NCBI GenBank assembly: GCA_035570235.1
Contig: DATMML010000047.1
Location: forward strand, 1 to 64,000
DNA: 64,000 nucleotides
Direction of reading: 5' to 3'
DNA from: Vicinamibacteria bacterium
GTDB taxonomy: Bacteria > Acidobacteriota > Vicinamibacteria > Fen-336
A program made the translations under genes and the position numbers. This document shows positions 8,876 to 25,611 of this stretch, one piece after another; position 1 is the first letter of the stretch; the number at the start of each line of letters is the position of its first letter. Below the pieces are notes generated by a model. That model saw only the letters and a program-made list of their open reading frames with translations. It had not been told where the DNA came from and ran no database searches.

Positions 8876-8913
8876 AAAAAAACGCCCCGGAGGGCTTTGC
8901 CCACCCTCCGGGG
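8876..8913 (-). terminator. Rho-independent terminator of the minus-strand RNA unit
   Basis: A perfect 10-bp stem, CCCCGGAGGG (8885-8894) and CCCTCCGGGG (8904-8913), with a 9-nt loop. On the minus strand it is followed at once by seven T residues (8876-8882). It is the strongest intrinsic terminator visible in the window and is oriented to end a transcript coming from about 9150. Confidence 0.85.
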
Positions 8914-9087
8914 CCGGTTAGCTGTTGGGATTCGCCAGGTCTTTACGCCTAGCGGCCCCCGCCGGGCGCCACGCGTCCGGTAAGGAGGCATCCAGTTGAA
9001 GGCGCTCTAGTTGGGGCGTGCCTGCATCGCTGCAGCCCCGATGTTCTCTAGTAGCGACGCTCCCAGTTGACTACGCTCGGCCGAGAC

Positions 9088-9129
9088 CTAAGCGTCAGCC
9101 ACCTCGCGGGGTTTAAGGCAACTGTCCAC
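9088..9129 (-). CDS. Possible 13-residue peptide behind an exceptionally long Shine-Dalgarno
   Basis: GTG start at 9129, 7 nt downstream of AAAGGAGG and within reach of a 16-nt anti-16S match; stop TAG at 9088. The peptide would be MDSCLKPREVADA. A second frame starting at GTG 9137 would give 29 residues ending VNWERRY, but its start abuts the Shine-Dalgarno with no spacing. Either peptide could be a leader peptide that controls the structured RNA. Coding capacity cannot be settled from a single sequence. Confidence 0.35.
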   Translation of the reverse strand: MDSCLKPREVADA

Positions 9130-9158
9130 TGGACCACCTCCTTTCTCGCGTGATTGGG

Positions 9159-9188
9159 AGTGTACGAACGCCCCGTGGAGGCTGTCAA
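9159..9188 (-). promoter_or_regulatory. Sigma70-type promoter of the minus-strand RNA unit
   Basis: On the minus strand a perfect -35 box TTGACA (9188-9183), an 18-bp spacer and a -10 box TACACT (9164-9159). Predicted transcription starts near 9152, only about 6 nt before the extended Shine-Dalgarno. Confidence 0.6.
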
Positions 9189-14673: not shown

Positions 14674-14703
14674 TTGAAACCAACGGTGGATCGTAATTAT
14701 AAT
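14674..14703 (+). promoter_or_regulatory. Sigma70-type promoter of udk, predicted leaderless
   Basis: TTGAAA (14674-14679), an 18-bp spacer and a perfect TATAAT (14698-14703). The expected start, 6-8 nt downstream, coincides with the udk ATG at 14712, so the mRNA would have almost no 5' leader. Confidence 0.65.
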
Positions 14704-25522: not shown

Positions 25523-25611
25523 GCCGGGGTACGGAAGCGGTCAAACTGAAGGTCCCTGCAAGGCCCTGTCTCCTAGAGACTTCAGGGGTTCGAATCCCCT
25601 CCCCGGCTCCA
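25523..25611 (+). tRNA. tRNA-like sequence, class II shape, anomalous anticodon arm
   Basis: An 89-nt sequence with a perfect 7-bp acceptor stem (GCCGGGG/CCCCGGC), discriminator T and an encoded CCA end. It has a D-arm with AAGCGGT in the loop, a long variable arm (GTCTC-CTA-GAGAC) and a canonical T-arm (AGGGG-TTCGAAT-CCCCT). The anticodon arm is irregular: AGGTCC and GGCCCT pair with one mismatch around a 6-nt loop CTGCAA, or give two mismatches with a 7-nt loop. In the second folding the triplet after T33 would be GCA (Cys), which agrees with U73, but class II tRNAs are normally Ser, Leu, Tyr or Sec. It may be an unusual tRNA, a decayed one or a tRNA mimic carried by the insertion sequence. 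Confidence 0.6.

Follow-up and report, generated by a model that had tools for sequence, protein, structure and literature searches.

Positions 8876–9188 of the window (the whole 64,000-nucleotide stretch of DNA analyzed here) encode on the minus strand a free-standing RNA of ~275 nt, the homology of which to the actinobacterial RNA Ms_IGR-5 is well supported. We consider, with moderate confidence, that this RNA would serve as a ribosome-gated switch or decoy, for which the act of translating a short open reading frame, and not the peptide produced, would constitute the function. The RNA family is ancient and poorly studied.

Transcription Unit in the Window

The −35 and −10 boxes, Shine–Dalgarno (SD) sequence, 13-codon GTG ORF, and terminator were all located on the minus strand where a preliminary description of 8876–9188 had placed them, and its view that the region is a unit of its own, comprising a genuine short ORF and a structured RNA, was borne out. 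The promoter, with a −35 box TTGACA (9183–9188) and a −10 box TACACT (9159–9164) separated by an 18-nt spacer, agrees with the consensus at 10 of 12 positions; four sites of this quality are present in the first 20 kb of the window, versus 1.2 in shuffles. The best sigma-70-like site of the same 20 kb is on the plus strand at 14674–14703 (TTGAAA-18-TATAAT; 11/12). Based on the −10 spacing and the position where the match to Rfam family RF02471 begins, the 5′ end of the RNA is predicted at ~9151; in the same-family homologues the predicted start is 6–7 nt past the −10 box.

The SD of the window copy is AGAAAGGAGGTGGTCC. The micro-ORF (9088–9129) encodes MDSCLKPREVADA in 13 codons from a GTG start to a TAG stop (GTG GAC AGT TGC CTT AAA CCC CGC GAG GTG GCT GAC GCT TAG; 9129–9088), and contains an internal SD-like GAGGTG (9100–9105) exactly 9 nt before the stop. 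The 5′ strand of hairpin H2 (CAGTTGCC) is at 9117–9124 (97% of cells paired, with one-sided changes only); H2 competes with a long-range helix, P3, for GGTGGCTG, the P3 5′ strand within the last ORF codons (9096–9103). Hairpin H3, which lies over the stop codon (ACGCTT at 9090–9095, partner 9078–9073), is weak, with 87.5% of cells paired. A ~52-nt insertion with a GC-rich hairpin (9002–9053) is confined to the copy in the window and is absent from all seven sister copies. Further downstream are an anti-SD AACTGGATGCCTCC (8984–8997) that would pair with the SD and start codon (helix H1), hairpin H5 (GCTAGG at 8948–8953, partner CCTGGC at 8939–8934; 100% of cells paired), a conserved unpaired AATCCC motif (8927–8932) that is present in most loci of the wider set, and the P3 3′ strand CAGCTAACC with one bulged base (8916–8924). 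The unit ends in an intrinsic terminator with a hairpin and U tract (8877–8914), the stem of which (8914–8884) has 12 pairs, 10 of them G–C, followed by seven T. The folding energy of the window RNA is unremarkable by itself (z = −1.9).

The unit was found in seven further genomes of the same bacterial family, giving eight copies with the window. The 5′ 65 nt are near-invariant, the in-frame ORF is kept, and all eight copies have promoter boxes of the form TTGAC[ACT] and TACACT or TAAACT; among the eight sequences, two compensated pairs occur in the terminator stem and one in H5. The unit is therefore more than a chance assembly, given that the seven same-family genomes retain the 5′ end, the promoter boxes, the ORF, and a compensated terminator. 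Six of the seven homologues are flanked by OPT transporter and metallo-hydrolase genes, as in the window. For the seventh (L008), neither an OPT transporter nor a metallo-hydrolase gene was matched, which suggests that movement of the RNA is not tied to these flanking genes.

All eight copies have the anti-SD in the form ACUGGAU(N)GCCUCC downstream of the ORF, and in predicted folding of the window family the SD and start codon are closed by it in the free RNA with a pairing probability of 0.87–1.0. A family-wide anti-SD was rejected: SD accessibility across 149 loci equals that of shuffles, and only the bacterial family of the window has the anti-SD, so that the predicted masking of the SD is a feature of that family only.

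Homology to RF02471 (Ms_IGR-5)

No Rfam family was matched anywhere in the window at gathering thresholds. In a relaxed search, RF02471 (Ms_IGR-5) was matched with 30.4 bits (E 5e-5 in 831 bases), below its curated gathering cut-off of 45 bits, with model positions 1–184 aligned end to end and co-linearly at 8877–9151. The match is unique in the 5.7-Mb genome; the model also matched all seven sister loci (18.8–30.5 bits) and three other Acidobacteriota (39.3–43.8 bits). As in Ms_IGR-5 of Mycobacterium smegmatis (ncMSMEG15794c), the shared blocks are in co-linear order: a 5′ segment ACRC..GAAAGGAGGUGGUCC with the SD, GAGGUGGCUG, GAAUYCC, and a terminator hairpin; both are also free-standing intergenic genes. 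The window RNA is therefore well supported by these alignments as a remote homologue of RF02471 that lies below formal membership. The preliminary description had recognized no known RNA family here, which does not hold in view of this homology; it had also named a hit to an already named RNA class as evidence against a new RNA, and such a hit exists in part, as homology to RF02471 that scores under 45 bits.

Certain differences from Ms_IGR-5 are apparent. The window RNA has extra hairpins and the anti-SD, its terminator is simple whereas the actinobacterial one is branched, and a GGAC/GUCC pseudoknot is not evident in the window family. The Rfam entry for RF02471 is restricted to Actinobacteria and assigns no function, whereas the window copy is from Acidobacteriota. 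The entry shows neither the ORF nor P3, and draws the SD as paired with the end of the ORF; this SD/ORF-end helix is 80% paired across our set, and a switch between it and P3 is possible.

Transcription has been reported for Ms_IGR-5 in M. smegmatis (PMC10454040) and for its homologues in Streptomyces lividans (PMC8079986) and Streptomyces avermitilis (PMC8780764). Ribosome footprints were found on the homologues in Mycobacterium abscessus and M. smegmatis (PMC4974804); these are no proof of translation, because many ncRNAs give ribosome-type footprints, as the authors of that study caution (PMC4974804). In the open-licence literature we found no description of an ORF, 16S complementarity, or function for Ms_IGR-5, and papers on small ORFs and sRNAs of M. 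tuberculosis in the Rv0813c region do not describe this RNA.

The Caulobacter sRNA CC2171 (RF01867) has GAAAGGAGGUGAUCCAGUG near its 5′ end and a GUG at the same place as in the window RNA. RF01867 was aligned to 9078–9153 (minus strand), with 18.7 bits in the window and 18.7–24.7 bits when the sister loci are included; these scores are far under the cut-off of 75 bits, and identity with CC2171 is therefore unconvincing. RF01867 had no match in the genome of the window at E 0.001, and among the controls only Caulobacter gave a match. CC2171 could possibly be an alphaproteobacterial branch of the same idea.

Breadth of the Family

A search pattern constructed from the common blocks (AAGGAGGTGRTC-N22..52-GAGGTG-N9-TAG) matched at least 119 stretches in genome contigs. 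Among the matches listed, the record titles name about twelve bacterial groups: Actinobacteria, Acidobacteria, Rokubacteria, Deltaproteobacteria, Myxococcales, Nitrospirae, Nitrospinae, Krumholzibacteria, Zixibacteria, Sumerlaeota, Leptospirales, and Spirochaetia. Records that are alone in representing a phylum are MAGs, and thus contamination of single records is possible. In Acidobacteriota, 41 of 396 genomes match, once each (versus two for a reversed control pattern), as do 8/96 genomes of Myxococcota and 10/80 of Actinomycetota (control zero in both). Genomes that match the pattern exactly have a single copy of the RNA. A search with RF02471, which does not depend on the pattern, gave a single location in each of 11 out of 20 genomes that bear the pattern, scoring above the cut-off in four, including Zixibacteria. 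The exact pattern had no match in viral contigs, and no similar DNA was found on plasmids. Judged by these matches, the putative family is far wider than the actinobacterial entry in Rfam.

Complementarity to the 16S rRNA 3′ Tail

At 9130–9146 the window RNA carries AGAAAGGAGGTGGTCCA, which is the complement (with one G.U) of the complete 16S rRNA 3′ tail, and provides at least 14 bp of complementarity at the 5′ end. Pairing was scored against the general bacterial 16S 3′ end (GGCTGGATCACCTCCTTTCT); a 16S 3′ end was not found in the assembly to which the window belongs. Contiguous pairing including G.U has a median of 17 bp and is at least 14 bp in 153/153 loci, although 12 SD bases of this complement are fixed by the search pattern. 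At the free positions −3, −1, and +13, mostly A or G is opposite U, with 86%, 99%, and 89% paired, respectively. In contrast, 207 GGAGG-bearing gene starts from the same loci have a median of 6 and a maximum of 13. The preliminary description was therefore justified in regarding this SD as stronger than that of most genes (17 versus a gene median of 6). Comparison across loci shows the predicted RNA 5′ end to be complementary to the entire 16S 3′ tail; to our knowledge, almost no RNAs have the anti-SD of the ribosome as their partner.

A Conserved Frame with a Nearly Neutral Peptide

The search pattern does not impose a frame from start to stop, yet 139 of 153 distinct loci have an ATG, GTG, or TTG 7–12 nt after GGAGG that is in frame with the stop, with no stop between; such frames occur in the other two registers in 0/153 loci, and shuffling of the middle gave 12 in-frame starts on average and at most 23. 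The ORF is 12–20 codons long. By eye, the 14 exceptions mostly have CTG, or an ATG slightly further off. Five loci (L030, L045, L107, L116, and L143, Acidimicrobiia included) have no ATG, GTG, or TTG and have an in-frame CTG at SD spacing, which suggests that CTG may be a natural start codon in these loci, downstream of a 17-bp SD.

Allowing TRR at the stop position gave 34 matches in 237 Acidobacteriota genomes; among the 33 listed in full, the stop is TAG in 28, TAA in four, and TGA in one, and none have TGG. Selection thus maintains a stop at precisely 9 nt past GAGGUG. The idea that only UAG is used, as in a sensor of RF1, is weakened by the real UAA and UGA variants. Since the frame is conserved (139/153 versus 0) and the stops interchange without sense codons, translation itself is under selection.

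These same features bear on the possibility that the RNA does nothing but bind the 16S tail, with the ORF a by-product, for example to shield the anti-SD from nucleases or to block 30S subunits during stress. The 17-bp complementarity exceeds that of any gene SD in the same loci, and a MazF toxin of M. tuberculosis is reportedly able to remove the anti-SD (as given in the title of a study); such a binder is nevertheless a distinctly improbable explanation, given the conserved start-to-stop frame and the interchange of stops.

The residues encoded by the ORF are under little constraint. In close pairs, single-base codon changes in the N-terminal part comprise 172 synonymous and 495 non-synonymous changes (dN/dS-like ratio 0.79), and those in the C-terminal part 119 and 176, respectively (0.66); the N-terminal residues vary freely. 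Comparison across loci thus shows the predicted peptide to be nearly neutral and hardly conserved, and the conservation of the C-terminal codons is attributable to RNA pairing there. GC accounts for 0.46 of third codon positions in the ORF, versus ~0.69 of the genomes. No other codon approaches AGT (Ser) in frequency (81/896; ORF codons 2 to −7 in 153 loci). The AGT excess and low third-position GC could reflect selection that either keeps the start unstructured or favors slow codons.

The RNA might alternatively be the mRNA of a conserved trans-acting micro-peptide (C-terminus REVAxx), with the RNA structure merely shielding the message. Such a message would be expected to have a conserved in-frame ORF, a strong SD, and a promoter and terminator of its own, as is the case here, and E-V is near the C-terminus in every locus read; however, in most loci the search pattern itself dictates E-V, the codons that are conserved are those overlapping P3, the GGAC pseudoknot strand, and GAGGUG, and both the dN/dS-like ratios and the free variation in N-terminal residues and in length are at odds with a functional peptide, which we regard as rather improbable.

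A Covarying Long-Range Helix

P3 is formed by GGUGNNNNN in the last ORF codons and NNNNNCACC just before the terminator. In the wide set, pair 7 occurs as UA, UG, CG, GC, and GU, and pair 5 as GU, GC, AU, and UA. Among 129 anchored loci, 103 have at least 8/9 P3 pairs with at most one bulge, versus at most 86 in 500 shuffles that carry no correction for relatedness; the pairing is lost when the partner is shifted. In the window, P3 is GGUGGCUG/CAGCUAACC, with 8 pairs and one bulge, and 97% of cells are paired in the eight homologues. P3 is nearly invariant among these close homologues, and its support consequently rests on the wider set. In nested folding of the window copy P3 hardly forms, even with the SD blocked. 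By comparison of loci, P3 is a covarying, predicted long-range helix that joins the last ORF codons to bases beside the terminator.

A second contact is likely in most actinobacterial loci, where a GGAC in the ORF would pair with GUCC of the terminator apical loop: GUCC is in a loop in 63/82 loci with GGAC, versus 4/44 loci with a different 4-mer. GGAC is absent from the window family.

The single-stranded AAUCCC conserved between H5 and P3 could instead be the seed of a classical trans-acting base-pairing sRNA, as could the loops, with the ORF being secondary (a dual-function sRNA). This would accord with an independent unit that has its own terminator, and with the origin of Ms_IGR-5 in an Hfq-based sRNA screen, to judge from the title of a reference cited in PMC10454040. 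Nevertheless, conservation is strongest at the 16S-complementary 5′ end and in the ORF frame, and not in a variable seed, which makes a base-pairing sRNA unlikely.

Genomic Context

The nearest downstream gene, identified with a simple gene finder, shares the strand of the RNA in 33 of 73 loci and lies on the opposite strand in 40; in the window, a convergent OPT transporter gene on the plus strand comes next. The most frequent neighbors are Aminotran_4 upstream (11/49) and a THAP4/nitrobindin gene downstream (14/57), a synteny that we attribute to actinobacterial loci; no other neighbor family is dominant across loci. In Actinobacteria (L028–L107), the RNA is often flanked by an aminotransferase class IV gene on one side and a convergent THAP4/nitrobindin gene on the other, which we take to be of the M. 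tuberculosis Rv0812 and Rv0813c types, respectively. Since both neighbors and orientation vary, the RNA is free-standing.

Leader-peptide attenuators comprise a short ORF that overlaps alternative helices and is followed by a terminator, and on paper the ORF, alternative helices, and terminator of the present RNA look alike. If the RNA were a leader of a neighboring gene, with ORF translation deciding termination, a co-oriented downstream gene would be needed; instead, there is none in the window, neighbors and their orientation are random across loci with no dominant family outside Actinobacteria, and P3 has no overlap with the terminator stem. We therefore consider an attenuator extremely improbable.

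tmRNA is likewise a structured RNA with a short frame that engages ribosomes. The window RNA shares the structure and the short frame, but has no tRNA-like domain or tag, and begins with an ordinary SD and start codon. ARAGORN identified no tmRNA in the window, and only a tRNA-Ala at 25523–25611.

Proposed Mechanism and Significance

Under the favored reading of a ribosome-gated switch or decoy, the RNA would capture 30S subunits unusually strongly via pairing with the whole 16S tail; in the bacterial family of the window, the downstream anti-SD would close this capture site in the free RNA. The ribosome would then run along the short frame, stripping P3 open, and terminate with GAGGUG in the SD position, which is at the normal SD distance from the P-site codon at the stop, such that the ribosome could be held or slowed. 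Upon its release the RNA would reclose. The ribosome itself would thus be the ligand, and the RNA would sense or buffer initiating ribosomes. AAUCCC may be a site for a second partner if the RNA functions as a scaffold, as an alternative to a decoy or a sensor. Of the roles offered in the preliminary description, a ribosome-directed RNA is the one favored by the 16S-tail complementarity, the conserved frame, and the near-neutral peptide, as read from comparative sequence data.

More tentatively, there could be a hitherto unrecognized pan-phylum class of ribosome-gated RNAs, each of which would pair with the entire 16S 3′ tail and be translated through a content-free micro-ORF, the stop of which is in register with an internal SD, while ribosome transit would switch a long-range helix; the cell would thereby read or buffer its supply of initiating ribosomes, and Ms_IGR-5 would be the actinobacterial branch.

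An orphan actinobacterial sRNA is hereby placed in a family common to about a dozen bacterial groups, of which the 17-bp 16S match, the peptide-free frame, and P3 are sharply testable parts. Its range is much wider than the Rfam entry indicates, and neither the ORF nor the covarying helix is described in the sources searched. If the proposed mechanism is true, the RNA would directly sense or buffer translation capacity, and would do so in the genetically tractable mycobacteria and streptomycetes as well.
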